Shown here in pieces: positions 2,341 through 56,522 of a DNA stretch of 64,000 bases. Within the stretch, counting starts at the first letter, position 1. Every line of letters begins with the position of its first letter. This DNA comes from Haliclystus octoradiatus (taxonomy: Eukaryota; Cnidaria; Staurozoa; Stauromedusae; Haliclystidae). The translations under genes and the position numbers were made by a program. The DNA lies in contig OU744447.1 in assembly GCA_916610825.1 (NCBI GenBank), forward strand, positions 25,173,037 through 25,237,036. Direction: 5' to 3'. Below the pieces are notes generated by a model. It searched no databases. It was given only the letters and a program-made list of their open reading frames with translations, and had not been told where the DNA came from.

Positions 2341-2389
2341 ATGAAGAATCCATATGCCTTGCTGCTAGCATCATCATTACTTCTAAATG
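2341..2389 (+). CDS. Gene A exon 1: start codon and signal peptide
   Basis: ATG at 2341 opens 16 codons with a short charged start (MKNPY) followed by a Leu/Ala/Ser-rich hydrophobic run, as in a secretory signal peptide. The exon ends in phase 1 at a GTAAGT donor (2390) that matches the phase-1 acceptor of exon 2. It was chosen because it is the nearest upstream ATG-signal segment that splices in frame. An additional upstream untranslated exon is possible. Confidence 0.72.
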
Positions 2390-5300
2390 GTAAGTTTTAG
2401 CATGTACTGAAAGCTGGATATCTTAGACTTAGACGAGGGCATTTTAATGTGCAAATCTCACACATTATATGTTACGAGACTGTCGTGAAAGACCATGCCA
2501 AGAAATTAGCATTCCAAATTTCAGTTTTTCTTGATGAGGCGTTCTTCCTATAAGTTACAGCCTAAACAGCCTTCATAAATTTTCAATTGCTATAGTTCAA
2601 TGGCTATTAATTGGATTTATTAAAATTATTCTTGGAACGAAACAAAATGTTTTACAAAACGTCATATTACATTTATATAGCTTTAAAAGATGTGCGTACA
2701 CGTAAATTATGTTGGTAAAGATTATGAATTGTTTTTAAATAACATATATTTAAATTAAATAGATTATACGCATCCCGTAATATCTGCATACCTATCAGGT
2801 TTCAGCTTTGTCATATTATAGGTCCTAATTGAGTCAATTGACCCCTTGATTTTAATGTTTTATGGGTTCTTAAATGTAGATCATGATTGCTTTGCTAGGA
2901 TGCCAATGCTATTTGATCTCAAATAACAGTAGTGATGAGCAGAAATACGCAATTCATTTACAAATATGGCAAGACCATCCCAGCTGTTTGATTGGATGTG
3001 GCTTGAATTCTCTGAGATCCAGATGCCCTGATGCGGAATGCCAATCGATAACAACGTGCAGTAATAACAATATCGATATGGTTGTATTGAGAGCTATTTA
3101 TTGCAAATACTCAGGTAAATGCTATATAGAAGAGTTTCAGAAAAATATTTGTTCAGTTTTGCTTTTGCCCTATACAGCCCAGTGAGTGATGTGGCCCAGT
3201 CGTGTCCACTACTCCAGAATTCCATGCACATGACTTCATCTTATAATGATATTCAGTTTCTTGAAGAAAAAAATTGAATGGATCTTCCTTAGTGCCTCAC
3301 TACAGGGTAACGAGAATTTCATGGAAATGTATCGGTTATGTGACTCATCGCTCCTAGTCCATGTATTCACTCATTTATTCTGAAGTTTATGGGCATAGTC
3401 CAAATTGTCTGACATTCAAGAATATTCACTTTCTTGTCATGCTGTCATAGCATAAGGAAGGAGGTACCACTTCATTCAAATTACCATGCTCTATCTTACT
3501 GGCTTCCATCACTTTTACATATGGACGTTCAATCACTGGTAATTAATTATGCGCTGAGTATGGAGATATTGAACCATAAAAACTACACAATATTTGACAG
3601 ATGCGTTTTGATTATAGGTTGAACTTTAAAATGCTTTAAACCCAGTAAAGTTTCATGGTTGCATATAATTTCAACCGGCTGAAAAGTACATTTTTAGAAA
3701 TTTTGCCATTCGAGGAATAAGTTTTCACAGTAGAAAATAACACCCATGCTTTCGAATACTCCAGCAACAGGTGTTTTGATCAGATAAATCATTTCATGTT
3801 TTAAATCAATAAAATTATTTTTGTGAAGGTTGGGATAATTGGTTGCCATGGAGTAATTGTACAGCGAGTTGTACAGCAACATGGCGAACCAGACACAGAA
3901 GATGCTTGGATGTAAACGGATGCAATGGAAATCCGACAGAACATATTCCATGTGCATTGTCGTGCAATGGTAAGAGTATATTCGTTCATGCCCTTGTCAT
4001 GTGAAGCCCAGTCAAGTCAATTTATAACCTTCTTGGATAATTAATGCTTGGAGAATAACTGTATTGGAATCACCAAGTAATAAATGAGTAGAAATTAAAG
4101 TTAGCTTTATCATACAGTGATACAAGACCGCACACAGAAGTGGATCTTAATAATGTTACAGACATCTCTAAACAGTAATCTAGCTATATGACCTATCATT
4201 CATTGACTTACCTTTTCAGCCACACCTATCTCAACGCCAATGTGGTCTTTATGGGGTCGATGTACAGCTACAGATGGAGACAATGAATGTGGATTTTCTA
4301 TAAGAGAAAGAGTAACTAGATCATGCAGCACAAGCCATTGTGTTGAATTATCGAGAGAAAGGGAATCATGTGGATCCATACCTTGCAAAGGTACAATACT
4401 GAGCGAGGGGGGACTTCAGTAGTTTTTGAACTGAAGTGTGCCATTTTCAGACATCGGCGAAGATAGTAAAATTTCACAGGAGGCAAAAATTGAAATGCAA
4501 TGTTTTTACGATCAAAACAAAGGAAAAGTTCTAAACTTTTCTAAATTGATACCGTAAAATTTCACTGGGATCTGGAAAAAGCATCCCTTAAACATGACAC
4601 GTCATGTATAACCGATGTAAAGAAGAACACCCCTCCGGAGACTGAGCACAACTGATTCCATTGATAAAACCTCATAATTCATTTAAAGAAATTGATCAGT
4701 TTTACTTTTATAATTATTCGATTTTAATCCATTTGATTATAAGATCGGATTCACATTCAGCATTATAATATGCATGCTTCGTTGCGTCGCGTTTCTATTA
4801 TTTGATAGTAAAATTCACGTGTTCTCCGATTTAATTTCACCTCAAATGTAGTTTTAATTTAGGCGAAATTTTCCAGCAATGCGAGTAAAACATTGCTAGT
4901 AGATTATATTTTTAGTTAGTCTGACATATATAGCCCTTTCCTATGTTTTTTGTTTTAAAGTCCGTGGCAAATGGTCTGGTTGGACGTCTTGGGTTGCTTG
5001 CAATCAATCATGCGGTGGAGGATTTACATTTCGTTATCGGTTGTGTAACTCACCAGGACCTCAGGGAAATGGTCAAGATTGCAAAGGAAATTCTGAAGAT
5101 AAAGAGTATTGCAATTCACACGAGTGCCCAGGTATCTCTTAACGCTATACAGTTTTAACAAAAGGCATTTTAGAGCTTTTTCATAGCTGACTCCCTCGAT
5201 AATTATTTAAAGAAAAGAATATAGTCTAAATGTAGCTGTATCATACATATTTTAAGGATTTCTCTATATCAGCAGGAAAGTCGCGGAAATTCAAATCCCA

Positions 5301-8300
5301 ACAAAATGTAGTGAAATTTATCATATATGCAAATTCATAACTTGAATATTATACATTGACAGTTAATAGCCTGTTTGGTCCTTGGAGCGATTGGTCGACG
5401 TGTGCGCTGCCATGTGGAAAAGGATCACAGTTCCGCAAACGCTATTGTTTATCATCGAGATACGGAGAAATGGGTTGTCAAGGAGATTTTAGTGAAGCAA
5501 GGAATTGTACTGCAATAGGAGGAACTACTTGTTCAAGTAAGATTTGACATGAACGGAGAACTTTTACTTATTCCATTTCCTTCAGAAGCATATTCGAAAG
5601 GAATGTTGTGTTGAATTAAATATGGAGCTCTAAAGGTTTTTCCAAGATAAGTTTAGAAAATTTATCTTTCGTAGAGGATCTAGTAAACTATCGAACGGAA
5701 CCATGGTGAAGACATCATGTTGTGCTATCACCAGTTTATTAATCGTTGCTATATATGAAATTAATGTCATTTTAGATGGGCTAAGGTATCCCATCCAGCA
5801 TATGGGAACATGTGCTATTTTGGTTTATGTTGTTAAAGTCAGAAGCGGCCTGTCAAGATGTAACAAGGCAGGCGCAGAATTGTTTCCAGGGAATGAAAAA
5901 CCCCAAACTTTAGACTACACAGCCATTGTAACATTTCACTCATAAATCCTACTGATTCCATTGTAACATTCGCGTTTCTGATTGGTGTAGCATTGACAAT
6001 TAGAAAATTAATAATTTTGCTTATATTTTATATTGTTTTCTTCAATTAGGCTACATTATAGCAGCAGTGACTTTGAAGCTCACATCTCTTCAATTCAACC
6101 CATTGCTTGGCACTACAGGTTCACCCATCTATAACAACATGACAAATGAACTCACTTCAAAGGTATACAGTAAAAACACACAAATTATAAATAGCAACTA
6201 TAATGGGTTATTTAAGTTCACGTTTGGATCTTACTATGTGGACTGTGTGTAACTCCCTGAAGTACGTCGACGGAAGTGCGCCACTCTAAAAGAAATCCAC
6301 ATACCTATAAAGTTTAACAAAGAAGGAATTTACATACATGAAACAATTATTTTTTGTGTCTTCAGTTATTCCATCAATTTTCGGATCTGTTTGCTTGGTT
6401 TCGTTCCCTTTCTAGAAAATGTTGAAAAAAATAAGAAACTTGAAAAAGGGCCAGGAACTATTCATCCTTCTTAAAATTTGATAAAGCTATACACAGACTT
6501 TGAAAAGTGAACCATACAAGTGGCACCATCACAGATATCATGAAAATAATCGATAAAATACTGTATAGATTTATTCATCCCGATCCATAACAATTGTTAT
6601 ATTTATAACATGATATTAATAAGTAAGATAAAATAAGTAAGATCTATAAATATTCTTACTAAAGGCAAATCGCTACAGCAGTACGGATAAAACTCAATTT
6701 CAATTTGTACGGGCTTGTGCAATTTTGAAACTTTTTGAATAACCCACTTGGTGCAAATTAATTATGAATTGAGCTCAACACCGTATGATTCCCTTTCAAT
6801 AACATGCCTGAAAGAATGTAAAAGGGAATAAGTTACGTTTTGTGCGAAGACCTTGAAAGGAAATTGTAATAGTATGAGAATACTGTGTGAGCAGGATTAA
6901 GATATATGATACAACAGATTGATATGAGTTGAGATGTTATTCGTGAGAGCACCAAGCAAGGAATGAGTTTACAAGTACACGAGTTACAATGAATGGACGA
7001 TAATTAGTAATATGACGTTACAGGAAGTTACGACAATGATTACAACACGATTACAATACTACTACAGAAATGTACACGTCATCAAATGAATTATTTATTT
7101 TCGAACGCTATAATCATTCACAAACTGAAAATAACTGAAACCATAAAATTACTTCAAACTAAATTTCATAACTTTTAATGATTCTGGCTCATATTCCTCT
7201 CCTTGCTTGTTACGTATGTCTGCATAAACCTCTCTAACAGTGCATTTAGTTCAGCTGGATTTTATCTTTTATCGCTCCTTGCAGGTTTTTCTCATTACAC
7301 CAACTCTGTAACACATTGAGCCATAATGTTGTACTTTTTGTTGTGTTCATATTTTAGAACCATTTTTTAATTACAATATTGTTTCTTCGGTTGCAGCTGA
7401 AAATCGATCATTTAAATTAAATTATGCCATACTTATATTCCGCCATTTACAAATCTGAAGGGATTTATTTTGTCCGCGACGATTTTAATACGATTGTTCT
7501 ATCGGCCAATCATATTCAAATTTCATTTTTTTGCACTGCAGTGCAACTTGGATTTGATTTCAACTTTTTGTACAGGAAATCCCTCGAAATTCGCTCTTTT
7601 CAAAGCCAATCAGAATCGAGTAATTTTTTCTTAACACACATGACTCATGTCCTACTATAGATGTAACTTCACTCATAAATACAACACTGCAATATCTTCC
7701 CTGCATATGTCAGGCACGTCAGATCTCATGCAGTATACACCAAAACGCATAGTACAATCGAATCCAGTTAATAAATTTCTTCCTTAGCAACAGATGTTCA
7801 ATTTCGCACGTGTTTATTAATTTGTTGTCGTGAAATCGCTTGATAGTTCGACATTGTCTCGATTGGAAACTTTCTTACTCTTGCGATACGGAAGGTTCAA
7901 ATATTAGAGGGTACTAAATGGTAAAAAATGATTTAAAAGGAAAAATATTTGAGGTATACAACACCTAAATGTTTAATTACAAAACTAAATTATTTTCTTA
8001 TTTCATTTAATCCTTTCATTATTTTTTGCTTATATTTTTTCAAGGTACTGTAATATGGAACTTAAAAAAAAAAATATGCTTGATATCTTTTTCATGACCT
8101 GAAGCATTTTTATGGTCATCCTCCCAAAGTTCTATTTGAGCAACCCCATCGAAGTTACTCCCATATCAGCGGGGTCACTGTATCAAGTAAAGAAAAATAT
8201 TGTGAATTATAATGTGTTTATTGTGTAGATCACCTGTAAATTGTTGAGAATCAGTACATGTTTTATTCGTTTCATGTAGTGGGAACATGTTTTGAAAGCA

Positions 8301-11300
8301 TTAAATAATTTACAATAGTTATATTTCAATCTTAGTTAACACAAGCAATGGCATCTGTCTCAGCTACTGTGGATTCAATTTACTCAATGTCATTCCAGTA
8401 AGTAAATAAAAAGTGGGATGCAATGCTTCAATATAAAAATGAAACTGTAAATCGAGCATTTAATTCGTTATGACTCATATTTAAAGCAGCTTAAATATAG
8501 CGTTCGATAAAAGTGGACTCATCAAGTCTTTCAATCAAAGAAAAGAGTTAGCCAAAATGGATTTAAGTTGATTAAATGAGTTTATTCCTTAACTTGACGA
8601 CATCCTTCAATTCTGCAGGATAGATCAGCAAGTATACATGGATTTGACTAAAATGAGGATATTCACGCCAACAATGTTCTATAAAATATATAACTTGTGA
8701 CCAATTTTGTTCTATTTCTTCTCTGTTAATTAAATGTTCTTCTCTGTCACACATCAGGACTGGAAGTATCATTGCGTCTTTCAATATCAGATTTGTCAAT
8801 AATATTGGAATCGAAGTGAACCTACTACAAAATCTACTCGATGAAACTCAAGCAATTGATAATTGGCCGGTTGCCAACCCACTTGTTTCGATTAGTGCAT
8901 CAAGCCCAGGTAAAGCGACACACAGTTTGAGATTTAAGTAGGATTTCCCATGGGCAAGTCATGCAATGGCCAATTTCTCTGACTGGTTTGCTGTTTCAAG
9001 TTGTTAGTCTTCACTACTCATCGGCCAGTGATGATAATTGAAACATTGTGAAGACCTTATGTCCATTAATCCGAGCATTGTCTAAGATTATAAATCTTGA
9101 AATCGAATTGAAAAATAGTGATTTTGCTGTTATTAATTTCACATTTTTAGTGTTTCCCCATGTTATGCAATATTCCACACTCATTTGATTGATTGACTGC
9201 TGAATTCAATTGAATTGAATTTTCATTGTACTGCACATTGTTCAGAAGTGGGTCTATTTGAATAGCATAGCCAATCACAAGCCAAATGATACCAATATAG
9301 GGTTCAACACTATAAGCTAGTATCAGATGTCTAACATAAAAAAGATATAAGGGCTGATGTAAAATCAACAAAATAAAACTAGTTTGTGTGTAAGTACCGG
9401 CCTTTATGATTTTCATGTGCAGGCTACTGTAAATTTTGAATCGGAGAAATTAAGAGTAAGAACAAAAAGAGAGTCAGCTCAAAATAGGAACAATTTCAAA
9501 AGACCGCGTCTATATCACAGCAAGTTCAATAAGTCTAAAATATTGTATGGTATACTAAGGGACTACATCACTCTTGTGCCCGACGAACAATAGTGATGTA
9601 ATTATTTTTCTAATCTTGTAACATAACATTTGTCTGGAATATCAATTATCTCTCGTCAATTTCGCTACAACAATCATTTTTTTCTTATTTAATGGGTGAT
9701 TGATTTTTCATTAAATACATTTTGAATGAAATTCCTACAAATATCATTCAAAAATAGAACGAAGAAATTCAACATGATTGTTTTTCAATGTATTAACATG
9801 TTTGCATTATTAAACATATAGTAATAGCTACATCTGAATATCATAATTCTCAAGCTGCTACTTTTTTTGAATTTTTCAAGTTGGATTTTCAGTTAGAGTA
9901 CATTTGATTTAATTTTATGAAAAATTATTCAATCTGTCGCAGCTAGTCACCATTTCAAAACATGTGTTCGAGCTATTTGGCTAAAGCTGTGCAGGTATAT
10001 AGGTATATACCCGCACAGCGAGGGAATTGACCTATACCTGCACAGTCTACACCCGACATAGCATGAAAATCCACATACTTTTAGTCGTTGCCATGAAATG
10101 TCGTGAACTTTCTTGGCGTTTTTCAAGTGATTATCAAATTGCGATAAAACACTCACAATAGTGATGTAACCCCTTATCACACTATTATATTCACAACTGT
10201 TGAATCAATACTAACAAAATAGACTATCGATTATCAATATATGGCTACAGACAATTGATTCATCTACAAAGCATGGATAACATAAGCTACATAAAAATAT
10301 AAATTTACCTTCATTGCATTATCTACAGATAATTAATAACTTTTTAAATCGGCTTTTTAATCCAATAAATAACGCTTACAATATGTTCACATATCAAATG
10401 AATAAGGATCTCAATTGCATTTAAATTGCATTTCCCGGGTTGCATTTATAAACTATTCAGCGTAGTAGAAATGCACGAAACAAGATGGCGTCCTGCTGGT
10501 TTTCATAATACATTGAGCACCAACAAAGATGGCTGCCACATGAAAACGAATATTGAAAGCCGTATACAGTTTTCGAAGATGTAACTGAAATGTGACCACC
10601 GGTTCGCACAGAACTTTTAACTTGTCAAACTGTGACTAATTTCTGGTTATGAAATGTTTAAGAATGAATGAAAGAAACCACATAAAACTTTCCTTGGGTG
10701 AACCATGCATATCTCTTTGGTCTTGTTTTAATTTATTCAGAAATAATTAGTTTGAGTAAAAAATCTGTCTGAAGATCCCAGCGAGTTGAAAAAAATTGGA
10801 GTAACAGTATAGGATCTGTATGCTTTTACTCTTTCACCCTAAATTATTTTACATAATAATTATATATACTTAATTTTAGACATGAGCTTATTTCATTGGA
10901 CGGATTAAACTATAAAAAACAAGGCTAAACTAGCAAATTAAAAAGACTAATGAAAATGATTTGCCACAAAAATTAATGATCATCTGTAAAAGAAGTTGTT
11001 GATTACATTATACACTGATAATAATTTGCAAATAATTTTTGAGAAGATGATCAAAAATACAAGTTTCATAGTTTCTATATATGTTATGCTTGATATCGTA
11101 GTTCCACCTCCTTTGTCGAGACCAACAGTCGAAGCAATTTCAAATACAGAAATCCACTGTTCATGGGATGAGCTACCATTCACAACACCATTAATCACAG
11201 GATATGTTGTATTTTATAAAGAATTATTACTTCCATTTACGAACTGGTCAGTCATTGGCGTACCACAAGGATACACAAACATAACGATAAAATATTTGAA

Positions 11301-20300: not shown

Positions 20301-23300
20301 GGCTTGTGTCAAGCATACAGATCATTAGAGCTACAATCAGGCTTGAAGTATCCTAGGATGCACTTCAACCAAACCAAAGATGGATCATTCGCCTTTCAGC
20401 CAAGTGAGTCAATTATTTTGGATTATTTAAACTTGTTTGTAGCTGTCTAACTTCACACGACATCAAAATTCTGCAACCTGTGTAGTATAGTCCCATAGAT
20501 TTATTATAGAATTATTCACCATGATATTCTGAACTAATTATAGTTAAAAAATGGTTTGAAATGTTTACTGAAACTAGTTCGAGGCTACTTTCATTTTTAC
20601 TGAGTTTTAACAAGAAGAGCCTGGAGCAAGCTCCGTTGCACATTTCAAATTATATTTTGATTCTAATTAGTTTAGAGCATCATGCTGAATAGTTATAAAC
20701 TATATCCAATAACTATCAGATTCTGAAATTTTTCTATGATTGGGTTGCATTTTTCTATGGGACCATACTTTTATACACAGATTGTATTCTCTGTGGCCTT
20801 ATTCGACATTCTCATTTTTGTTTTAGATGAAAACATAATGAAAGACTCAGTGTCAATTAATTCCGACATCTATTTGCCAATCAATGGACATTTTAATGTT
20901 GATGTTTTTCAAAAAGATTACAAGTTTGTTCCTTTGATGGAAGAATCCAACATTTTATTATTAGTGAGGCCATCTGATTATGAATCACAAGGCAGTCTAA
21001 TTATTGGTTCCATTATAAGTCTGTGGCCAATGGTCCTGTTCATGACCCTATCTGCATACGCAGCGGGACTTGTTATCATTATTTTGGTGAGCATGCATGA
21101 AGATCAGAAATTATGCTTCATAACTCAATATTGATTAGAATCTATCAATATTCAGATCGTCCTAAAAAAGGAAATTAATTTCCTGACCCATTGAGATGCC
21201 TCTTTTTCATATACAATATACATATCAGTAAGTTTCTACTTATTAATTTTGTAATAAAAGTAAACGACAAAATAGATGTTGATTGAGCTTTCGACATTGC
21301 TTATGTCATCTTCAGAAATATATTTAAAAAGAAAAATTATTTAAAATACATGGGTTAAAAGTGTAAAGTTACACAAAGTGCTAGAAACAGGATGCGTTAA
21401 TAACAATAGACTATTATAGACAAAGGCAAGAACAATAGTTTTTCAATATCCTGCTGGGAAAAGCCGAGATTTGATTGAGTCAGACTGAGTGTTGAGGTTT
21501 GGCTTGATTCACCTGATTGCAAGCATTGGTGAATTAAGCAGTCAAACTTGTCTTTGCATTTTTTCAAAATTTTAAAATTGTTTTCAGAAACAGATTTTCC
21601 GTGTTGTTGATTTACATGTGCGTAAACAGCAGACCCTTTTCTATTGTGCTCGTCAATGCGTTGATGCAACTGTCGGAAAATCTGTTTCTGAAAACAGCTT
21701 TAAAATTTTGAAAAAATGCAAAGACAAGTTTGACTGCTTAATTCACGAAATGCTTGCAATCAGGCGAATCAAGCCAAACCTCAACACTCAGTCTGACTCA
21801 ATCAAATCTCGGCTTTTCCCAGCAGGATATTGAAAAGCTATTGTTCTTGCCTTTGTCTATAATAATATATTGTTATTAACGCATCCTGTTTCTAGCACTT
21901 TGTATAACTTAACACTTTTTAACACTTTTAAACCCATGTATTTTAAATAATTTTTCTTTTCAAATATATTTTTGAAGATGACGTAAGCAACGTCGAAAGC
22001 TCAATCAACGTCTATTTTATCGTTTACTTTTATTACAATATACTTAATCCGTAAAAATAGCTCAGCCGATATGCAAGCCCAATCATCTGTAGAATGACAG
22101 CAAATCCCATGTAAATGTCAATTAGGTATAATTAATCAACTATGCCATGTAAACAACAATTACGTGTGAACTATTACGTCAACCTATTTCCTTTTGGAAG
22201 TTTTTGTACTAAAGTATCACTTATTTTATAACGATTTTGATATGTTGGTATTTTGGAAGACGTAATTTTTTTTGAAAACAATGAGATCAGACAAGCAGGC
22301 GTTGGGCAGATTCCTGCCCAACACTTAGCAGAGGACATAAGTCCTGCTTACCATCCATCAAAATTCAGCAAATCAAAGCAAGCGAGACTTGGGCCAGTCA
22401 ATACGACGGAACCACGAAATATCTCAGTTTTATCATTACAGTTTTGAATTCTTCTTCATCTTACTCGACTGATTTATAGCCTGTGCGAAAGTTTTTATCG
22501 CGTGACTTCATTGGTCACAACCAATTTCAAATTAAAGCATAATTCCTGTGCTTGATCAACAGAAAGATGAATTCATGTAACTTCCACTTGAATAACCTGT
22601 TCCCGAAACAGATAAACATGCTACAGTTAAGGGTAGTTCCATGTAGGAATGCTTTTTCCGCTTCGTTTTTAATTTAGAAAACATACTGCTTGAATATCTG
22701 CTGGAAAGAGCGCAAGGGTTGATAATGAGTCGGTGTTTTTTAGTTAACTGTTATCGTTTCCAGATCGTGAATTTCTCATGAATATATGAATTGCCCTTTT
22801 CAGGATCGCTTTAAAAGTGAAAAATTTTCATATGGCAAGAATGCAATAAATCTCTCCTTTGAAGGTTTTTGGTGTGCTTTCATTTCAATGACAACGGTTG
22901 GGTAAGGGTAAAAGAGCAACTAACAAAGTAGTTCATATTTTATCCCATTGAAATATTTTACCATTGTCATGATGTAATCCTGCTTGTCTATATTTAGGCC
23001 TATGATATGTGCCATGCTTTTGAGAGGTGAACCATAATGTGTTGCCACGTATGAGACTTGTTCATTGAAATTGAATATCAAAGTTAATGTATTATTGGCA
23101 TTTCTCATAACATGGATTGCTTTCTCATTAGATTTTTTTAACAAATTACTTTAATTTAAATTGTCAATATTCACTAAAAAAGAGACTCTTCAAAGTTCCA
23201 TATTAAACTACAATGGTCGTCGATTAGAAGTTTTGAACGGGCATGCTTATGCTGCTTCACAGGTGTTGAATTCCGTTTGGTGTTTTACAATCGATCATTT

Positions 23301-26300
23301 TCGTAAATTTGCATATTTTTTGGAGATAAAAATAGCATATTTAACGGATAGTAATATTTCGACTCGACCTTTGGTGAAAAACTTACTCAAAAGTGTTATA
23401 AACATTTACTTTTTGATAACGAAATTATAAATTAATAATTATTATCACTTGCATTTCTGTTGAGAAGTAATACCATTAATTGACTTGTCAATCATCCTTA
23501 CTAGATATGGTGATTTCATTCCAATTGGTCAGGCAACAAGAATGTTTACCATGGTGTGGATATATAGCGGAATTGTGATGATATCAATATTGCTTGGATC
23601 TTTAACATCTGCAATCACACTAATTACTGATAATGAGGTGCCAACAATATTTGGCAGAAAGGTAAGCTGTTTATGATAAACGATACTATTCGTATTGATG
23701 TCCTTAATCCTTGTTTCTAAGATGGGTTTATCCTTCCCGATCTTTACCCAGGCTTATTTCACATGTAAATATCTTGGATATTACATTGTCAGCCATTTAC
23801 ATTTATGCTGGCGAAGCCAGCACTTTTCTCCAAAACTCTGGAAGCATCTTGTTACATTTTCAATCTTGGTACGTTAGGTGCCTACTAGGTAATATTTCCT
23901 TTACTACAACATGAAATCATTGTTTTTATTCATTGAGTCAGTACTGGTTATAGTGCACACTTCCATAAATGTTAACATAACGTTTTAATGACGACTTAAT
24001 CTTTTTGAAGATTGGATATTCTATATCGTGATCTTAGCCTTTATATATATCACTTTAGCCTTTATCAGGTGGTTGAGGTTAACTTGTATTCTATTTTATA
24101 AAATAATTGAATGTGATAGTGATCGCTGATTGGTTGTGGTTGGTGTTTGTATAAGGCTATACGCAAAGTCAGAAATTACTGCTTTTGGCTTAAAGCCCCA
24201 AAACGCGACAAAATAGTAAAAAAAAATACAAAATCGTATTACTAACAAGAGTTTTGTTTGATAGAGCGAATAAAAATACCCTTCAAATTCAATTAGCAAA
24301 AAGAAAACACAGTTACTTTCAAATCAAATCATAAATAAAAAACGATATATAAAACTCCCTTGTTCAATGTCCCTGTCCGTAGTTGTAAATCATTTTTGTA
24401 TTGTCGATAAACGCCAAAGCCAAATCGCACGTTACTTTACGATACATTTCAGTATTTCGTTGCTTCAAAAACATAAAAGCCTAGGTTCTGTATACGAATA
24501 GATTAATAATGCTTTAAATCTTCAATACAAATACTGTATTCAGACTTAACCAATGCCGTTTGCGTTTATTTCCAAACTGATTTATTCCATTTTTATAACT
24601 TATCATATAGCTTTTCTAAAAGGCACAGCGTGTTTATATTGAAAATCCGCGCTCGTTCTTATATCATTTTAAGAGAGTTTAGATATGATTGCTATTTTAA
24701 GCTCTTTAATGTCAAATTAAACAGGTCACTTATTATTTTATAAAACAAATAGAAAACGGTTATTCGTGTTAAGAACTCGGATACAAACACTTTAGTTGCT
24801 ACGAGACACTCAAGAGGCTAATATCAGTCACCCTGGCGGCACTTCAATTTTGAAATCTCTTTCATGTCTCATTACGCACCCAGCGTGTTTATAACAGAGT
24901 ACATAGAACTCAGCACCGTTTTCTATTTAGCAATTAGACAACGAAACAGAGTAGGCTACCGTCGAATAGTCATCGAGGTCCTCTGAGGTGACTATTCGAA
25001 ACAGTAGACAACAAGGGCAAGTTGTCTAATTGCTTTAGTAGAAACCAACTAGTGGTACAAGCCAAACATATCAAAAGGAAAACAAATTCCAACTACTTTT
25101 TCGCTTCTTGCATAATTAATTTCAAATACAACCTTCAGCATCCATGACAACTGCAGCGTCGTGATTTGGAGAATGAATTTTAATTCGACTTGATTCAGAT
25201 TTAATTTTGAAAACAAAACAGTTGGATATTAATACTGGCTACAAAATACAGCCCCTCAAATTAGCAAACTTGAGCAAGGTAACTATTGAGTATCTAAAAA
25301 TATTTAAATGTTTGCGGTTTGTAATAAAAAAGTTGTTTGTTTATAAACTTTACCTGACTAGCGAACTAATCTGCAATAAAATAGCGACGGAAAATGGCAA
25401 AAAGAGTGTAAATAAGATTAAAATTAGTATATGCATAGCCTACCATTGAGCAACCTCATCTCATATTTTTCCTTGGATTCTTTTATCGGGCACGGAATTT
25501 ATAAGACTCTCGTATAAAATTGATTCAAAAACATTTGCGAATCGATTGCTTACTTTTTAGAATTTGAGAGGGAGCTTGCCAGCGTTCACTATGAGAAATG
25601 GTATTATTCTCAATATTTTATGATTCCAAATAATAGAACTTGAAAACTATGATAACATGTGCACTTTCATCAATAAAAACATTTCAAGATGTAAATCATG
25701 ATGTTAAATAGTTTAGTTAACTTACATTTTATAATTATAGTTTCAAGTACCATTATTTGATATTACAAATTAGCACGTTAATAAAGTCAATTCTTTTTCT
25801 GATAATATTTTCTCTATCGCTTGTTTTCTTACGATTTGTTCTCGAATTTTGAAAAATTCATAAAAAATAATTCAAAAATGTTGGTTTTTATGCTTATGTC
25901 AACTCAACCACGCTGTACTAAAGTACTAGGGAATGAGATATTGATTTTCATTGGATCAAAAGAAATACGCCGAACAAATCAATATCTCGAGGTATGACGT
26001 GTTTTAGTTTGGAATATCGTGTTTTCTTCCGAATACTTGGAATTATCTCGGGGCTAATTAGTTAAGATCATAATTGAGTTGGAAATCTCAAATAGTAATA
26101 AAAACTATTATAGGCTATGTATGCACCATCTATGATGAAAACCTGATCATCCCTCTATTGTTCTTCTCTTGCTCTCATAAAATCGGAGGGAAATCTGAAT
26201 CTGTATAGTTTTCTGTAAAGTTTTTCATCAAACTTTGTGTTATTCCTTATGGACTTTGAATCAAAATAGTCTCACTCGAATTTACCAAACTATTATACCA

Positions 26301-29300
26301 ACATTAGGATCAATACGTAACATTCACTTGGAGAAAAAATAAACGGTTTACCATCAGTATATTCTCAAGGTGGCGTTATCAATAAAATCTGTGGTCTTCA
26401 ATTTACGCATTATGACTACATGCTGTTTTAATGGATAGTTTGAATAGTACTAACATATTTTATCAGATTTCATGGGCATTCCAGTTGCCGAAGTTTCTAT
26501 GTAAGGTTTTTAACTTCTGAGAACCGAAATTCAATTTTTATCACTTCAGACTATTATCCAGAAACACGGGTAATCCAATGCGACTGGTACGAACCTATTA
26601 TCAGCGTTGAGTTACTTGCTCTTTAACTATCATCAAGATTCTATCGAAACTGCCGCAAACAACTGAGCTTTTTATTTACTGCTGATCTACACGATGAAAT
26701 GTAACGAAAGTATTACTCATTCTATCAAAACTTAATTCCGTAGCATTATTATAATTCGATTATAATGATTTCGCAAGAAGTAATTAATTTAAATTGATTC
26801 CCCTTTGTTTCTTTCCAAAATTTTTAGGTTGCTGTATTGAATTCGTCGTATGAATATCAATTTGTGCTAAGAAAAAATGGCAAAGTAGATGGTATATACA
26901 ATGAATTTTAACTGTATCAGTCACTACATTATTTTTGTGGTGTTTTAGATATATTTTTCTGAGTTTCAGAAATGTTTATGCGTGCTCTGGGAATGTCTAT
27001 GTGTGTTTCAGAAACGTTCATCCGAGTTTCAGAAATGTTTATGCTTGTTTTGAGAATGTCTATCTGTGCTTCATAAATGTCTATTTGTGTTTCAGAAATG
27101 TTTACATGAGTTTTAGAATTATTTATGCATGTTTTGAGAATGTTTAACTGTGTTTCAAAAATTTCTGTGTCCATGTGTTTCAGAAATGTCTATGTGTGTT
27201 TGCAGAGTCTCTATATGTGTGGTTCAGAAATTATACGATTTGAAATCCTGAATTTCCAAAGTGGTGTTTGTTATTCAGGCTTGATTAGATTAAGTACACA
27301 TAAAGGAGAATTCCATTCAACTGAGTCCCACACTTCGTCCGTTTTATATCAATTTCTTTCCTTTGAATTCACAGGGAATGTTTATTTCGATCCAAAAGAT
27401 ATGCTACGTGCTTTGATTGAAAAAGTTGTTGATGGTGTTGCAATTGACAAAGTGATGGCAATCGATTTGAAAACTGAAATTGATGAACTAAATATCAAAA
27501 TAGGCCAGGAATACGAAAAGCAATATGGTTATGGCATGGTGGTAACTGGAGATTTGCTAACTATTTATCCCTACTTGAAGAAGGCTATTTCAGAGAAACC
27601 ATTCAAATTGGATACATCAAAGGTTTGGCTCTTATATCCTAACACATTGCCTACCAACACATTTTACTAAGTCAACCACATTACTATAGATTGAGTGCCG
27701 CAGATCTAAACAGAAGGTTCCTCCGTGCAACTCGAAATTCACATAACATTGTCAACAAGAGTGTATTAAATATGTTAACCCTTTTTGTTTTAGTCAAAGT
27801 AGAGCTCTTCAAAGAGAAATTTACAAATAAGATTTCGGTAAGAGCCCTCTTAATACAGAAGGTTGTTATCCTTGTTGTTTTCGTCATGCTTTCGTGCAAA
27901 ATCATGGGAAAACATACGAGTCAGAGACCACGAAACTGAAATGTTCCATTTTCCAAAAATGCCATAAAGGCTTTGTTTGTGAATCATGAAATAATTCCCC
28001 CAACAATAGATTATTCTTCTAGTTTTCGTGTCTCGAAATGCTATTTTTAATACAATATTCATTCAATAAAGGTAAAAAGACAGCTACAAGAGAATTTTCT
28101 TGATGCTGAAACAAGGCATATATATCTTCTTCTAAGATTCTAATATATAAATGAGCATAGCTTACATGATTTGAATGATTTGTAATATACAATTGATTAT
28201 AATTAGGGTACCATTCGATGTTTCATAATTGCTTGCATTCGACATTATTTTATCCTAGGCTTACCTTGATGCAAGTGGAAGTAGCAATGAAGCAGTTATC
28301 AGCTTCATCGAAGGTAGTTTGCCTGTGATGATTCTTGTGCTCGCATGTTCCGCTTTTGTTGGTTTCATTGTTGCTTATATAATGGAGCGATGGAGCATAC
28401 AAATTTTGACGTTTTATGATAAAGTTCTTGAAAAATTGAACAAGCAAAGAATCAAAAAAGGTAAGCTGATCATCAATTATTTGATGGTTTATATATAATT
28501 AAGGATAGGTTAAATATACACTATCTTGGTTTTAATCATGTAATGTTTTGAATGGAGACAAAAGTTCTTGAGAATGAGACTAGTTGCATATAGAAAGTGT
28601 ATGCTTTAATAAATCAAGTTTTCTGCACTGTCGTCAACATGCGTGTCTGCGTGCCTATTGTATTGTTTCCAGAAATTTACGTAATTCAGCCTCCTTTGGA
28701 ATGAGGGGAGTGTGTGTTGAAATGAAAACAAAATTACCACTTCCTGCAACAACAGTTTCTATATCATCATGAATTTCCTTCAAATCGTGATTTACATAGA
28801 ATGTCAGGGAATTATGGATAATCAAATCTACAGCGCAACCCCTAGACTCAAAGCGCTCATTGTAAACATAAGTACATTCAGGAAGAGAAATGTCTCCATC
28901 ATGCCAAATTTCCTTACAGTTAGATCTTCGATACATGAATAAATTCATAGATGCTGTCGTGATTTTCAAGCAAACTTCTAACGTTTTGTGTGGCGATTCG
29001 CCACTGGCGAAAGACATTTACCTCACAGGAACTTTATCAGTTGTTATATATCATAAGAGTTTTATTAAATCACACTTATTGTAAACCTCTTCTAAGTTGT
29101 CGTTCATCATATAAAATTGAGATGAAAATTATTGTGAAAATTAATAATAATAATAGAATCGTCCTAGTTTGCAATAACTGCAGTTCCAGCAAACAGGAAA
29201 TGGTAATATAGGGAATAGAAGTTGTAAACAGATCAGTAACTGCCCATTATCGTACAACTCAATTCAAAAGCACGAAGAACGTGCAGCCTATTGAGAATAT

Positions 29301-29673
29301 ATTTTCACAGAGGAGACACGCGACCGCGAGTTATTCGATCCAACAGTTGGTGACTGAGCTTTTGCACAATGTTTAATTTTCAGTTGCTAATAAAAGACGT
29401 ATAGAGATGGAAGAGCTAACAGAAGTAGTTAAAGAATTGAACGAAAATATCAAGAAACGAATGAAAGAATTAGATCGAAAGCAAACGCTGAATCTGTACC
29501 ATTGTCTTGTACTAAAACGCTGTGTCCATTATATCAAAGGATATGACGTGAAATATTCATACGCTGTTGTAACCAAGCCACGGCCTAGTTTTAGCGAAGA
29601 AAAGACATCACAGAACTTGCAATATGTCCAACTAGGCTATGATATGCAGTTTTCTCAAGAAGGTATTGATTAA
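2341..29673 (+). CDS. Gene A: adhesion-type ionotropic receptor with K+-channel selectivity filter (20 exons)
   Basis: Coding exons: 2341-2389, 2899-3114, 3829-3969, 4220-4390, 4961-5131, 5363-5536, 6050-6162, 8336-8397, 8758-8909, 11102-11395, 13032-13334, 19432-19737, 20167-20403, 20827-21086, 22804-22901, 23505-23661, 26828-26891, 27375-27622, 28259-28460, 29384-29673. All junctions are GT-AG, phases agree and the total is 3708 nt (1235 aa plus stop). Domains: signal peptide 1-16; eight-Cys module 17-88; four TSP1 89-307; SEA about 308-413; three FN3 417-717; S1 about 718-850; M1 853-883; pore loop with TTVGYGD at 913-919; M2 929-953; S2 968-1085; M4 1093-1115; cytoplasmic tail. The S1-M1-P-M2-S2-M4 order is that of ionotropic glutamate receptors. 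The GYGD filter is that of K+ channels, as in bacterial GluR0 and rotifer AvGluR1. I infer a surface receptor-channel that may conduct K+. Ligand and expression are unknown. The paralogue (gene B) supports most channel exon boundaries. Confidence 0.85.
2390..2898 (+). other. Gene A intron 1
   Basis: A spliceosomal intron in phase 1, GTAAGT to CTAG. AT-rich, with no coding or repeat content that I can name. Confidence 0.7.
2899..3114 (+). CDS. Gene A exon 2: unrecognised eight-cysteine module
   Basis: A symmetric phase 1-1 exon of 72 codons. The acceptor (TTTGCTAG) and the donor GTAAAT at 3115 leave one open frame with eight cysteines, beginning GCQCY and ending near IYCKY, and candidate N-glycosylation sites (NNSS). 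I do not recognise the fold. Its place between signal peptide and TSP1 repeats makes it an extracellular disulfide-rich module. An alternative acceptor at 2880 puts an in-frame stop soon after, so the 2899 start is preferred. Confidence 0.75.
3115..3828 (+). other. Gene A intron 2
   Basis: A phase 1 intron, GTAAAT to GAAG. It contains no recognisable exon, RNA gene or repeat. Confidence 0.7.
3829..3969 (+). CDS. Gene A exon 3: TSP1 repeat 1
   Basis: A symmetric phase 1-1 exon of 47 codons. It opens with the TSP1 signature WDNWLPWSNCTASC (tryptophan ladder, then CxxxC) followed by the Arg-rich strand WRTRHRRC and further cysteines. Repeat 1 is shorter than the usual ~55-60 residues. It is an extracellular adhesion or matrix-binding module. 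The intron that follows is only 250 bp. Confidence 0.85.
4220..4390 (+). CDS. Gene A exon 4: TSP1-like repeat 2
   Basis: A symmetric phase 1-1 exon of 57 codons with WSLWGRC, a basic strand (IRERVTRSC) and six cysteines. The spacing after the first cysteine is irregular for TSP1 (an acidic insert DGDNEC), so it is called from its exon phase, position and Trp/Arg/Cys pattern. Acceptor CTTTTCAG, donor GTACAA. Confidence 0.78.
4391..4960 (+). other. Gene A intron 4
   Basis: A phase 1 intron separating TSP1 repeats 2 and 3. Nothing recognisable inside. Confidence 0.7.
4961..5131 (+). CDS. Gene A exon 5: TSP1 repeat 3
   Basis: A symmetric phase 1-1 exon of 57 codons and the most canonical TSP1 in the gene: WSGWTSWVACNQSCGGG, then RYRLC and NGQDC, six cysteines in standard order. 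The WxxWxxW motif is a typical site for C-mannosylation in this family. Acceptor TTTTAAAG, donor GTATCT. Confidence 0.92.
5363..5536 (+). CDS. Gene A exon 6: TSP1 repeat 4
   Basis: A symmetric phase 1-1 exon of 58 codons: WSDWSTCALPCGKG, then FRKRYC and three more cysteines. It is the last of four consecutive single-exon TSP1 repeats, a pattern that suggests exon duplication. It is followed by the SEA domain exons. Donor GTAAGA. Confidence 0.9.
5537..6049 (+). other. Gene A intron 6
   Basis: A phase 1 intron between TSP1 repeat 4 and the SEA domain. No feature seen. Confidence 0.7.
6050..6162 (+). CDS. Gene A exon 7: SEA domain, first part
   Basis: Phase 1 in, phase 0 out, 113 nt. It encodes an alternating hydrophobic strand (AAVTLKLTSLQF) followed by the SEA hallmark segment in which a new strand leads to SPIYNNMTNEL. 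It continues in frame into exons 8 and 9 to complete a SEA module of about 105 residues. Donor GTATAC. Confidence 0.8.
6163..8335 (+). other. Gene A intron 7
   Basis: A phase 0 intron of 2.2 kb inside the SEA-coding part. AT-rich. I found no domain-encoding exon and no clear transposon signature. Confidence 0.65.
8336..8397 (+). CDS. Gene A exon 8: SEA domain, helix
   Basis: A short 62-nt exon, phase 0 in and phase 2 out, encoding an amphipathic stretch ending SIYSMSF. It joins exon 7 (SPIYNNMTNEL) and exon 9 (TGSIIASF) into the ordinary SEA layout. Acceptor CTTAG, donor GTAAGT. It has no useful ORF of its own and was found by following phase. Confidence 0.78.
8758..8909 (+). CDS. Gene A exon 9: SEA domain, cleavage-type motif and C-terminal half
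   Basis: Phase 2 in, phase 1 out. The exon begins with TGSIIASFNIRF: in SEA domains this strand carries the autoproteolytic G-S-V-V-V-type site, here G368-S369-I-I. The following segment (INLLQ-like helix, then a strand) completes the fold. If cleaved, the TSP1 part would stay non-covalently attached to the FN3-channel part, as in MUC1-type SEA proteins. That is inference from the motif. Confidence 0.82.
8910..11101 (+). other. Gene A intron 9
   Basis: A phase 1 intron of 2.2 kb. It contains a small palindrome built on GTGCAGGTATA/TATACC near 9988-10016 and two copies of the word AATAGTGATGTAA (9589 and 10157 areas). No coding content. Confidence 0.6.
11102..11395 (+). CDS. Gene A exon 10: fibronectin type III domain 1
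   Basis: A symmetric phase 1-1 exon of 98 codons holding one complete FN3: VPPPLSRPTVEAIS, CSWDEL, the GYVVFYKE strand, YTPYTIRVAAVTSNDVG and a closing SSPY. Candidate N-glycans (NWS, NIT) are present. Extracellular. The open frame runs past the donor at 11396, but the GTAAGT and domain end mark the exon end. Confidence 0.93.
11396..13031 (+). other. Gene A intron 10
   Basis: A phase 1 intron of 1.6 kb. A less AT-rich block at about 11450-11800 differs from its surroundings and could be an old insertion of unknown class. A foldback sequence lies at 12718-12875. Confidence 0.6.
12718..12875. repeat. Short inverted repeat (hairpin)
   Basis: The left arm AACAAGGTG...TTGAACAGCGGCAAAACGCTTTGTATTC is matched by the right arm GAATACAAAGTGTTTTGCCGCTGTTCAAG...CACCTTGTTCG in inverse orientation, with about 65 bases between the conserved cores. 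It is probably a small non-autonomous foldback element. No target duplication was found. Confidence 0.6.
13032..13334 (+). CDS. Gene A exon 11: fibronectin type III domain 2
   Basis: A symmetric phase 1-1 exon of 101 codons. FN3 signatures: PVSPPDHIYC, the VSWNGP strand, GYIVRF, and WYIIEVAAVTVFGTGP near the end. Acceptor TTTTTTGCAG is strong, donor GTGAGT. The intron that follows (6.1 kb) is filled by repeats. Confidence 0.92.
14290..16440 (+). repeat. Long noncoding dispersed repeat, copy 1
   Basis: This segment recurs in inverted orientation at about 49400-51560, and part of it again at about 62553-63130. Shared landmarks include GATGATTTATAGAG (14670), TTATTCAGAACTTCTTGAAACG, TGTTGTTCGGAGATTATGCTGC (14960) and the block from TGTTTGCATAATTTCCCGACAA to GGGCAGACACAGAA at 16330-16410. 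No protein is encoded. The class is unknown; it behaves like a non-autonomous transposon of about 2 kb. Confidence 0.65.
16862..17565. mobile_element. Foldback / MITE-like element with ~180-bp inverted arms
   Basis: The left arm (about 16862-17030) contains GGTGTCTGTAGCTTGCGTGC, GTTTACAGGAAGTAC, TTTTAGCGTCTCGATGTTATG and CGGGGACTTTAT. The right arm (about 17370-17565) contains the same blocks in inverse order and orientation, around a 340-base AT-rich loop. There is no transposase ORF, so it is non-autonomous. The superfamily is not determined. Confidence 0.7.
18124..18753 (+). repeat. Hairpin-bearing repeat family, copy 1
   Basis: Three copies are seen: here, 34881-35590 (+) and 47468-48142 (-). 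Shared parts: an opening hairpin built on GGGTTACTGCACGGCAG...CTGCCGTGCAGTAACCC with GTTGGTATGAGAGAACCC, then a body with GCCTTTCTTCGAATCA, TCGATTCTTTCGAACGCTATG and an end at GAAAATCTCTCGAGTTTTACAA. Noncoding. In this copy the left side of the hairpin is partly deleted. Confidence 0.75.
19432..19737 (+). CDS. Gene A exon 12: fibronectin type III domain 3 (membrane-proximal)
   Basis: A symmetric phase 1-1 exon of 102 codons. FN3 signatures: VTIEWESM, the GYKVEYAI strand, VIDDLQEASDVQFRVYGFS and LGDGPISR. It aligns with the FN3 in gene B (54980-55282), which has the same phase and the same late SDVxxxVYxxSxLxDGP pattern, so it predates the duplication. Confidence 0.92.
19738..20166 (+). other. 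Gene A intron 12
   Basis: A phase 1 intron between the last FN3 and S1. No recognisable content. Confidence 0.65.
20167..20403 (+). CDS. Gene A exon 13: ligand-binding domain S1, first half
   Basis: A symmetric phase 1-1 exon of 79 codons. It begins ESCWCHYDYYVSW and carries a G-x-x-x-x-Y-I/V helix start (VGPLVEYIENLF) then CGLCQAYR, resembling the first lobe of a periplasmic-binding-type or iGluR S1 domain, but diverged. Gene B exon 48421-48654 matches in phase and at the CGxCxAYR, LxPRLHFN/PRMHFN and KTRDGS/KTKDGS stretches. The S1 call rests mainly on its position before M1. Confidence 0.78.
20404..20826 (+). other. Gene A intron 13
   Basis: A phase 1 intron. The ORF that precedes exon 14 in frame is hydrophobic but lies before a good TTTTGTTTTAG acceptor, and the gene B phase agrees with splicing at 20827. 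No other feature. Confidence 0.65.
20827..21086 (+). CDS. Gene A exon 14: S1 second half and M1
   Basis: Phase 1 in, phase 0 out, 260 nt, the same length as gene B exon 42788-43047. The YKFVPLMEESNILLLVRP stretch resembles the iGluR segment that precedes M1. It is followed by a hydrophobic helix of about 28 residues (IIGSIISLWPMVLFMTLSA and on to VIIIL) with the family-like conserved Trp. No arginine sits where the glutamate-binding Arg of iGluR S1 would be expected. Confidence 0.87.
21087..22803 (+). other. Gene A intron 14
   Basis: A phase 0 intron of 1.7 kb between M1 and the pore loop, largely occupied by the Penelope-like palindrome. The 22100-22800 part shows no coding evidence. Confidence 0.65.
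21251..22036. mobile_element. Head-to-head pair of Penelope-like element 3' ends
   Basis: A large palindrome: the left arm 21251-21601 (reads -) and the right arm 21673-22036 (reads +) are near copies, with the left copy extended by about 70 bases into the centre. Each arm encodes a segment like KKCKDKFDCLIHEMLAIRRI followed by KPNLNTQSDSIKSRLF, which resembles the C-terminal GIY-YIG nuclease part of Penelope-like elements. Both arms are decayed fragments. The noncoding end contains TGACGTAAGCAACGTCGAAAGC. It lies in the intron before the pore exon of gene A. Confidence 0.65.
22804..22901 (+). CDS. Gene A exon 15: pore helix and first half of K+ filter
   Basis: Phase 0 in, phase 2 out. It ends SFEGFWCAFISMTTVG, the pore helix and first half of the K+ selectivity filter. 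The second codon base of the first filter glycine is the last exon base: the intron falls between GG and A. Gene B exon 40481-40575 has SFEGFWFAFVTMTTVG split at the identical place. Confidence 0.92.
22902..23504 (+). other. Gene A intron 15, splitting the K+ filter
   Basis: A phase 2 intron placed inside the first glycine codon of GYGD. GTAAGG donor, ACTAG acceptor. The matching gene B intron is 40147-40480. No other content. Confidence 0.8.
23505..23661 (+). CDS. Gene A exon 16: rest of K+ filter, M2 helix
   Basis: Phase 2 in, phase 0 out, 157 nt, identical in length to gene B exon 39990-40146. It completes the filter as GYGD, then FIPIGQATRMF and a pore-lining helix (MVWIYSGIVMISILLGSLT). 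The residues after the filter resemble K+ channels more than animal iGluRs: no SYTANLAAF-type gating motif is present. It ends at FGRK before lobe 2. Confidence 0.93.
23662..26827 (+). other. Gene A intron 16
   Basis: A phase 0 intron of 3.2 kb between M2 and S2. It contains one copy of a direct repeat shared with 53155-53710 (here about 24990-25610). The rest is AT-rich without recognised features. A missed S2 exon cannot be fully excluded, but gene B also goes directly from M2 to VAVLN. Confidence 0.6.
24990..25610 (+). repeat. Dispersed repeat, copy 1 (partner 53155-53710)
   Basis: Shared landmarks with the partner: GTTGTCTAATT, GCATAATTAATTT, ATCCATGAC, CGTGATTTGGA, TTTAATTTGATTTGATTCAGATTTAA-like and ATTCAAAAACATTTGCGAATC. 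Both copies lie in + orientation. Noncoding, class unknown. Confidence 0.65.
26828..26891 (+). CDS. Gene A exon 17: S2 start (linker strand)
   Basis: A short 64-nt exon, phase 0 in and phase 1 out, encoding VAVLNSS and a tail KNGKVD. Gene B has the matching exon at 36889-36937 (VAVLNGS and RNGETK). Without this parallel the exon would be easy to miss. The donor GTATAT is weak, so the exact 3' end is less certain. Confidence 0.75.
26964..27235. repeat. 21-bp minisatellite in gene A intron 17
   Basis: About 13 imperfect tandem units with consensus TTTCAGAAATGTTTATGTGTG. The 21-bp period equals seven codons, so long stretches stay open on both strands and give heptad-like translations. It lies between S2 exons 17 and 18 of gene A. 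The gene B intron at this point (36536-36888) lacks it, which argues for an intronic satellite and not an exon. Confidence 0.85.
27375..27622 (+). CDS. Gene A exon 18: ligand-binding domain S2
   Basis: Phase 1 in, phase 0 out, 248 nt, the same length as gene B exon 36288-36535. It encodes the second lobe of a binding-protein fold: VVDGVAIDKVMAIDL (like the iGluR segment bearing the acidic ligand contact, here an Asp near residue 1014), then QYGYGMVV, equivalent to the conserved K-G-Y-G-I strand, and a closing helix. The donor GTTTGG is non-consensus, but the phase and the paralogue support it. Confidence 0.88.
27623..28258 (+). other. Gene A intron 18
   Basis: A phase 0 intron between S2 and the M4 exon. 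No recognised content. Confidence 0.65.
28259..28460 (+). CDS. Gene A exon 19: end of S2 and M4 helix
   Basis: Phase 0 in, phase 1 out. After a short segment (AYLDASGSSNEAVISF) comes a strongly hydrophobic helix LPVMILVLACSAFVGFIVAY, then ERWSIQ and a basic, probably helical cytoplasmic run ending KQRIKK. This third transmembrane helix matches M4 of eukaryotic iGluRs. Bacterial GluR0 lacks it. Confidence 0.87.
28655..29017 (-). pseudogene. LINE-type endonuclease fragment in gene A intron 19
   Basis: Antisense to gene A, a 120-codon open stretch contains a tract like IWHDGDISLPECTYVYNERF followed by ESRGCAVDLIIHNSLTF. This is the pattern of the exonuclease-endonuclease-phosphatase domain of non-LTR retrotransposons (E-x-W, then R-x-x-R-G-G-G-V). 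It begins and ends without the rest of the element and is a truncated remnant. The class (CR1/Jockey-like) is a guess. Confidence 0.6.
29384..29673 (+). CDS. Gene A exon 20: cytoplasmic C-terminal tail and stop
   Basis: Phase 1 in and ends at TAA 29671-29673. It encodes a charged helix (NENIKKRMKELDRK) followed by HCLVLKRCVHYIKGY and a low-complexity end. Gene B exon 31853-32055 shares the pattern N-x-x-I-K-x-R-M-K-x-L-D, then C-(5)-K/R-C-x-H-Y. The conserved tail suggests a binding or assembly role, but I recognise no known domain. Confidence 0.88.
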
Positions 29674-31852: not shown

Positions 31853-32055
31853 CTACAATTTAGTAGTTATGCCTGAACGAGAAGTTTTATTATTTATCTT
31901 GTATTCAATCGCATAATGCGGACATTTTTCTTCAATGAAACATCGGCATATATCTGTTGAAATTCTATTGTCCAATTTCTTCATTCGTATCTTGATATCA
32001 TTATTAAATTTACCAATCACTGAGCCAAGCTGTTGCATTTCAAGAAGTTTGTTAG
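31853..32055 (-). CDS. Gene B exon: cytoplasmic tail and stop
   Basis: 203 nt, phase 1 in, TAG stop at 31855-31853. It carries NNDIKIRMKKLDNR and CRCFIEEKCPHYAIEY, matching the conserved tail of gene A. It ends about 25 residues earlier than gene A. Confidence 0.87.
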
Positions 32056-56322: not shown

Positions 56323-56522
56323 ATTGGCGACGAGGATAAACTATTATATTATTTAAATTGAGTGCTTTTATGGCTAAAAGTCACCAATGATTACAATGAT
56401 TACACAAATTTGATCCTGAAGCACATACAGATAATGTCTTTCATGGATTTTGTGACTTCATTGATTCTTTTGCATAAAAGCATGAAGCTGTCGCAAAGGA
56501 TCCATCTGAAGGCACAGATGAG

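Follow-up and report, generated by a model that had tools for sequence, protein, structure and literature searches.

A 64,000-nucleotide (nt) stretch of the genome of the stalked jellyfish Haliclystus octoradiatus (Cnidaria, Staurozoa; contig OU744447.1, positions 25,173,037 to 25,237,036; hereafter the window, in whose numbering features are placed) carries on its plus strand a gene, gene A (2341-29673), whose product is quite probably a K+-filter subunit belonging to the superfamily of ionotropic glutamate receptors (iGluRs). In this protein an adhesion-type head would replace the usual amino-terminal domain, and the subunit would work by the mechanism set out below. The architecture, its origin in one gene, the order of its modules, the filter, the relatives of the core, a motif in the SEA domain and purifying selection are all supported by comparison of gene A with six paralogs in the same genome (genes B, C and C5a-d) and with more distant proteins.

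The gene A model consists of 20 GT-AG exons joined in phase, with 3765 nt including a single final stop and a product of 1254 amino acids (aa). Exons 1-15 (2341-23661) keep their phase through 976 codons with zero stops. The protein begins with a signal-peptide-like start (exon 1, 2341-2389; ATG, GT donor, phase 1), called by eye and lying under the hydropathy cut-off used. Exon 2 (2899-3114) encodes a Cys-rich module that precedes the TSP1 array, has no Pfam match and is common to genes A and B, in the latter again upstream and there beyond the window; it is perhaps an undescribed domain. Four TSP1 modules follow, namely exon 3 (3829-3969; TSP_1 17.2 bits when taken alone, under the cut-off, and 1.8e-15 with a self-trained family hidden Markov model (HMM)), the divergent exon 4 (4220-4390; no Pfam match alone, matches in paralogs), exon 5 (4961-5131; TSP_1 7.8e-13) and exon 6 (5363-5536; in-phase join, paralog matches and family HMM). 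The SEA domain is divided between exon 7 (6050-6248; first half, Pfam SEA 0.00096, below the cut-off) and exon 8 (8758-8909; second half with the sequence GSIIA). Three FN3 modules complete the head, in exon 9 (11102-11395; fn3 1.9e-8, weak acceptor), exon 10 (13032-13334; fn3 2.3e-4, 21.8 bits, under the cut-off of 25 alone) and exon 11 (19432-19737; fn3 3.1e-9).

The core starts at about residue 727 and has the order S1-M1-P(TTVGYGD)-M2-S2-M4, followed by a tail. Exon 12 (20167-20403; paralog templates and alignments) encodes the first part of S1 and exon 13 (20827-21086; genome matches, paralog templates and hydropathy) its second part together with M1. An intron interrupts the K+ filter, exon 14 (22804-22901; in-phase join and paralog templates) ending with the pore helix and TTVG and exon 15 (23505-23661; Ion_trans_2 4e-12) starting with YGD and continuing into M2, which is M3 in iGluR numbering. 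S2 starts in exon 16 (26828-26891) and continues in exon 17 (27375-27622; paralog templates). A tentative and weak exon 18 of 11 codons (27805-27837), the M4 exon 19 (28259-28460; hydropathy 2.67, with a similar exon seen by eye in C5b and C5c) and exon 20 with the tail and stop (29384-29673; the tail resembles those of genes B and C) end the gene. Exon 16 was placed by paralog templates and phase, with an alignment score of 64 against 7 for the runner-up, and its counterpart ranks first or only on splice score in 6/6 paralogs with phases fixed. Another candidate for it, 25924-25991, was ruled out, as it breaks the phase on both sides. The hydropathy cut-off was passed only at residues 861-891, 937-964 and 1114-1132, as expected for M1, M2/M3 and M4; residues 1-850 contain no stretch above it and so the head would be extracellular. 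Two repeats lie in the introns of this part of the gene, a fold-back element in intron 13 (long inverted repeat, 21246-22041, with arms of up to 171 nt that are 96% complementary) and a degenerate 21-base tandem repeat (26961-27231) directly before exon 17.

A Pfam scan of the whole protein, in a near-complete version with 25924-25991 as exon 16, gave fn3 (1e-21, three stretches), TSP_1 (2.2e-20, three stretches), Ion_trans_2 (4e-12), Lig_chan (7.5e-5; 23.0 bits, below the cut-off of 30.8) and SEA (0.097). Neither an LIVBP-type amino-terminal domain nor a GAIN domain was among the Pfam families for gene A at E ≤ 1, and a K+ pore with three long hydrophobic regions is found instead of the seven-helix domain of adhesion G protein-coupled receptors (GPCRs). 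An earlier reading of the window made from its letters (the sequence-only reading) had proposed a 20-exon, in-phase gene with the same ends and the same series of modules from the Cys-rich module to M4. Both the gene and the series hold, with one TSP1 lacking a Pfam match and SEA below its cut-off; the four families it had named for an HMM search, Lig_chan, SEA, TSP_1 and fn3, were all matched, Lig_chan and SEA below their cut-offs.

The same genome contains 48 matches to the S1b-M1-P-M2 part. From these, 18 S1b-M1 exon matches were picked, 12 of which are followed within 6 kb, on the same strand, by a match to the pore exon, and seven of the 12 loci were examined: A, B and C on one chromosome and C5a-d on another. 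TSP1, SEA, three FN3 modules and the core occur in identical order on one strand in gene A and in 6/6 paralogs, FN3 no. 1 of gene C being seen only in part. Because the loci were picked by their channel core, the head in each is an independent observation. Since all six paralogs keep the module order on one strand, this comparison of loci confirms that the fusion of head and channel in gene A is not a gene-calling accident, and the separate genes for the two halves that the sequence-only reading had considered were not seen in the genomic sequence. The numbers of TSP1 modules seen were 4 in A, 4 in B, 3 in C and 8, 6, 8 and 7 in C5a-d; the HMM that counted them was trained partly on the same loci, so the counts lend no independent support, and the C and C5 regions may be cut short. 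The exon phases of the paralogs, imposed by the gene A template, likewise give no independent support. A single exon holds both SEA and FN3 no. 1 in some paralogs. An automatic search for upstream exons in the paralogs succeeded in part, finding no credible exon 7 or 8 and choosing another exon 9 acceptor in gene A. A cluster of seven further paired matches lies at C5:20.95-21.31 Mb, and the four examined have 6-8 TSP1 modules each, above the number in gene A.

TTVGYGD is present in 7/7 genes and the longer TMTTVGYGD is invariant among them; K+ selectivity of the gene A channel is predicted with strong confidence. All seven cores match Lig_chan at E ≤ 1 (best 3.6e-11), with Ion_trans_2 scoring higher, and the gene A core alone reaches 20.7-23.0 bits against the Lig_chan cut-off of 30.8. 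In hhalign comparisons the core profile aligns with GluR0-like proteins of bacteria as well as with the short K+-filter proteins of cnidarians, in each case from S1 on into S2. A structure model of the nearest relative, P0002, resembles glutamate receptors, with GluR0 ligand cores as the best matches, an assignment that rests on a protein of 28% identity and not on the window's own spliced core. The K+ filter and iGluR-type core proposed in the sequence-only reading are thus borne out by the filter, the alignment and the model, the fold itself as far as a relative can speak for it, and a gene A core of iGluR-superfamily kind, S1-M1-P-M2/M3-S2-M4, is supported by these comparisons.

The Arg in S1 of glutamate receptors holds the carboxylate of the amino acid. 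In the alignment with GluR0-like proteins this column reads N, K, S, S, T, T and S in A, B, C and C5a-d, so that Arg is absent from 7/7 genes on an uncertain alignment of divergent strands, and we therefore take the ligand, with moderate confidence, not to be a standard amino acid. A different view would make gene A a true amino-acid-gated K+ channel like GluR0 or AvGluR1, with the head merely a spacer. That view has in its favour the GluR0-like proteins among the relatives of the core, an acidic S2 residue (VDGVAID in gene A) that is invariant in all seven genes and the Lys of gene B at the Arg column, but the replacement of the bacterial motif's Arg in all seven genes, on that uncertain alignment, makes it unlikely.

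Pairwise comparison of C5b, C5c and C5d (dS 0.97-1.56) gave ratios of nonsynonymous to synonymous substitution rates (dN/dS) of 0.13-0.16 for the core, against 0.22-0.25 for FN3 nos. 2 and 3. Pairs with C5a give 0.14-0.15 for the core (one pair saturated) and 0.27-0.45 for the FN3s, and A-B and A-C pairs have dS above 2, ratios with C5a, B or C resting on high or saturated dS. Head (as judged by the FN3s) and core both seem to be under purifying selection, which is stronger on the core. Gene A might instead encode mainly an adhesion molecule, with a channel part that does not conduct or has a regulatory role; over half of the protein is indeed head, as the core starts only at about residue 727 of 1254, and paralogs differ in the number of TSP1 modules seen, with 4 in each of A and B and as many as 8 in others. 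Given the invariant TMTTVGYGD and the lower dN/dS of the core, we rate this slightly below amino acid gating.

Far less credible is a false join of two adjacent genes, one for a matrix protein (TSP1-SEA-FN3) and one for a channel: gene A is known from genomic sequence alone and some of its introns are long (e.g. 13335-19431), but module order and strand are kept at all seven loci on two chromosomes and every gene A join is in phase. Equally improbable is a decaying or mis-assembled copy, to which the weak exon 18 and exon 9 acceptor and the fold-back element of intron 13 might point, against 3765 nt of open frame with one final stop and sister genes that share the plan.

SEA was the best Pfam family in 6/6 pieces (gene A and five paralogs), by the first half only, and lay above the cut-off in one, C5a (31.7). 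The SEA halves of the paralogs were located by phmmer and motif, their first halves being chosen by eye from weak matches (E 0.007 to about 1); with strict splice sites no first half was found in 6/6 paralogs. The motif G-S-[VI]-[IV]-x is present in six of the seven genes, as GSIIA (A), GSVIV (C), GSVIA (C5a) and GSVIT (C5b-d). Motifs such as GSVVV or GSIVA lead to SEA autoproteolysis, after which the halves remain together until force separates them (PMC6954182, in excerpt). It is reasonable to expect, with moderate confidence, that the SEA domain of gene A is cleaved, and a motif of the autocleavage type strengthens the comparison with adhesion GPCRs made by the sequence-only reading.

Besides the purely genomic origin of the model, several observations weigh against reading gene A as a K+-filter receptor subunit with an adhesion head. 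Within the gene, exon 18 follows a poor acceptor, none of the four paralogs checked shows a clear counterpart of it, and a search for a better exon found none; the frame is intact without it. The exon 9 acceptor scores under the limit used in the automatic upstream-exon search. An M4 could be recognised only in A and, by a hydropathy search judged by eye, in C5b and C5c; tblastn with the gene A M4 exon gave zero matches in 6/6 paralogs, and M4 was not located in B, C, C5a or C5d. For the core, no solute-binding-protein or ligand-domain Pfam family was listed, and exon 17 folded alone reached a predicted local distance difference test score of 68 with no PDB match at E ≤ 0.001. The best 60 PDB sequence matches (of 236 and of 385) were nearly all named K+ channels with no glutamate receptor among them, by which we judge the ligand domains of the family to be very divergent. 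To these we add the borrowed fold and the saturated dS described above. The gene A SEA domain scores 19.2 bits against a Pfam cut-off of 26.4, in its first half only, and that of gene B has SGKLQ in place of the G-S motif, so cleavage would not be general in the family.

The mechanism we propose runs as follows. Four subunits would form a K+-selective pore, the S1/S2 clamshell of each would close on a ligand that is probably not a standard amino acid, and closure would pull the inner helices open; K+ would then leave and the cell would be hyperpolarised and silenced. The head would be attached at the same point, before S1, as the amino-terminal domain of other iGluRs. Its TSP1 array could fix the channel to the matrix or to a neighbouring cell, or help to present the ligand, the FN3s would serve as a stalk, and SEA could act as a self-cleaving, non-covalently held joint able to release the head under force. 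We hold the tetramer and clamshell gating with moderate confidence and offer tethering or force release only tentatively; the gating or tethering by head modules that the sequence-only reading had proposed is likewise conjectural. More speculative, and in our judgement doubtful, is a family of contact- or force-sensing K+ channels, in which TSP1 would hold, the self-cleaved SEA would release under load and the FN3 stalk would act on the clamshell, the membrane potential thus being set directly by adhesion or by its loss. If that were true, the expansion to about 12 genes or more, unequal in their number of TSP1 modules, would supply cells with a repertoire of contact sensors.

The remainder of the window is largely occupied by gene B, which lies on the minus strand (31856-64000, continuing to C2:25251055), tail-to-tail with gene A and with the same modules. 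Its TSP1 modules, SEA and FN3 nos. 1-2 were located beyond the window, up to C2:25251055. Within the window, all on the minus strand, are FN3 no. 3 (54980-55282; paralog search and family HMM), the first part of S1 (48421-48654), the second part of S1 with M1 (42788-43047; genome match), the pore helix with TTVG (40481-40575), YGD with M2 (39990-40146), the start of S2 (36889-36937; also by splice score) and S2 (36288-36535), these six placed by the gene A template, and a tail region (31895-32059) that resembles exon 20 of gene A (tblastn 6e-6). Retrotransposon pieces (integrase zinc-binding, rve and gag) lie on both strands at 37768-38726 and 56478-57233, inside the span of gene B.

Outside this genome, the short relatives P0002-P0008, P0010 and P0011 have an iGluR-type core with a K+ filter. 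Three come from named cnidarians: Hydractinia LOC130625765 (P0003), Stylophora 'Kv A member 1-like' (P0005) and Desmophyllum OS493_015779 (P0011). Where named, the short relatives are annotated as uncharacterised, hypothetical or voltage-gated K+ channel, and together they seem to form a family of K+-filter receptors that has gone unrecognised. Pfam found no TSP1, SEA or FN3 in the seven scanned (P0002, P0003, P0004, P0006, P0007, P0008 and P0011), and the precomputed domain list of P0005 contains none. With the gene A core alone as the query, a homolog search returned just P0001, a protein with a glutaredoxin part that seems to have been joined to it by faulty gene prediction. A search with the SEA-FN3-core alignment found 13 proteins; fn3 is listed among the domains of each, Lig_chan, Ion_trans and Ion_trans_2 in none. 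Scoring was confined to the 7992 candidates with the most shared words, so the lack of fused relatives elsewhere carries little weight. The short proteins do not group together in a tree built from fused, short and bacterial rows; its root serves for drawing alone, it carries a long-branch warning, and the genome's ordinary iGluRs are not among its rows.

The core apparently belongs to a branch of known K+-filter iGluRs common to corals, a hydroid and Haliclystus octoradiatus, a cnidarian branch that goes unmentioned in excerpts from two studies of how animal iGluRs evolved (PMC6307864, PMC12226733). The sequence-only reading had named GluR0 and AvGluR1 as the known K+-filter receptors; both stand as members, and the set is wider, with unfused, headless relatives in corals and a hydroid. 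In the architecture that it called new, the core is of a known kind and the fusion had no relative outside this genome in a limited search. No description of an adhesion head on a K+-filter iGluR core was found in the literature and no fused protein in that homolog search; as far as these searches reach, the combination is undescribed. Gene A would then represent an animal iGluR-type lineage that kept the K+ filter, by which such receptors would no longer look peculiar to a rotifer among animals, and a receptor channel in which an adhesion head with a possibly cleaved joint has taken the place of the amino-terminal domain. Two questions become testable, the kinship of K+-filter and cation-filter iGluRs in animals and the direct gating of a channel by matrix or cell contact.

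Among the closest known systems, the short cnidarian proteins share with gene A a TTVGYGD pore between S1 and S2 parts and membrane helices (some are partial, e.g. P0003, P0005 and P0011) and, in the P0002 model, a further C-terminal helix as in gene A; unlike gene A they have only 301-500 aa. GluR0 of cyanobacteria and the bacterial GluR0-like proteins P0009, P0012-P0015, P0018 and P0019 share the split ligand clamshell and the K+ filter but have no adhesion head, and the Arg of their ligand site is missing in the gene A family. GluR0 has two membrane segments, whereas gene A has an extra M4, and AvGluR1 of the rotifer Adineta vaga has the ordinary iGluR architecture (both PMC12332018, in excerpt). 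AvGluR1, compared by description, would so lack the TSP1-SEA-FN3 head of gene A. Ordinary animal iGluRs (AKDF, NMDA and epsilon) have an LIVBP-type amino-terminal domain and the S1 Arg, and gene A has neither. The ionotropic receptors of protostomes, again compared by description only, resemble gene A in a divergent ligand domain without the ordinary amino-terminal domain and differ in the filter; to our knowledge they have no K+ filter. The plan of the head is that of adhesion GPCRs such as ADGRF1/ADGRF5 and GPR126, in which a modular adhesion head and a cleavable SEA domain precede the membrane part (PMC6954182, in excerpt), but gene A joins such a head to a channel core rather than to seven helices.
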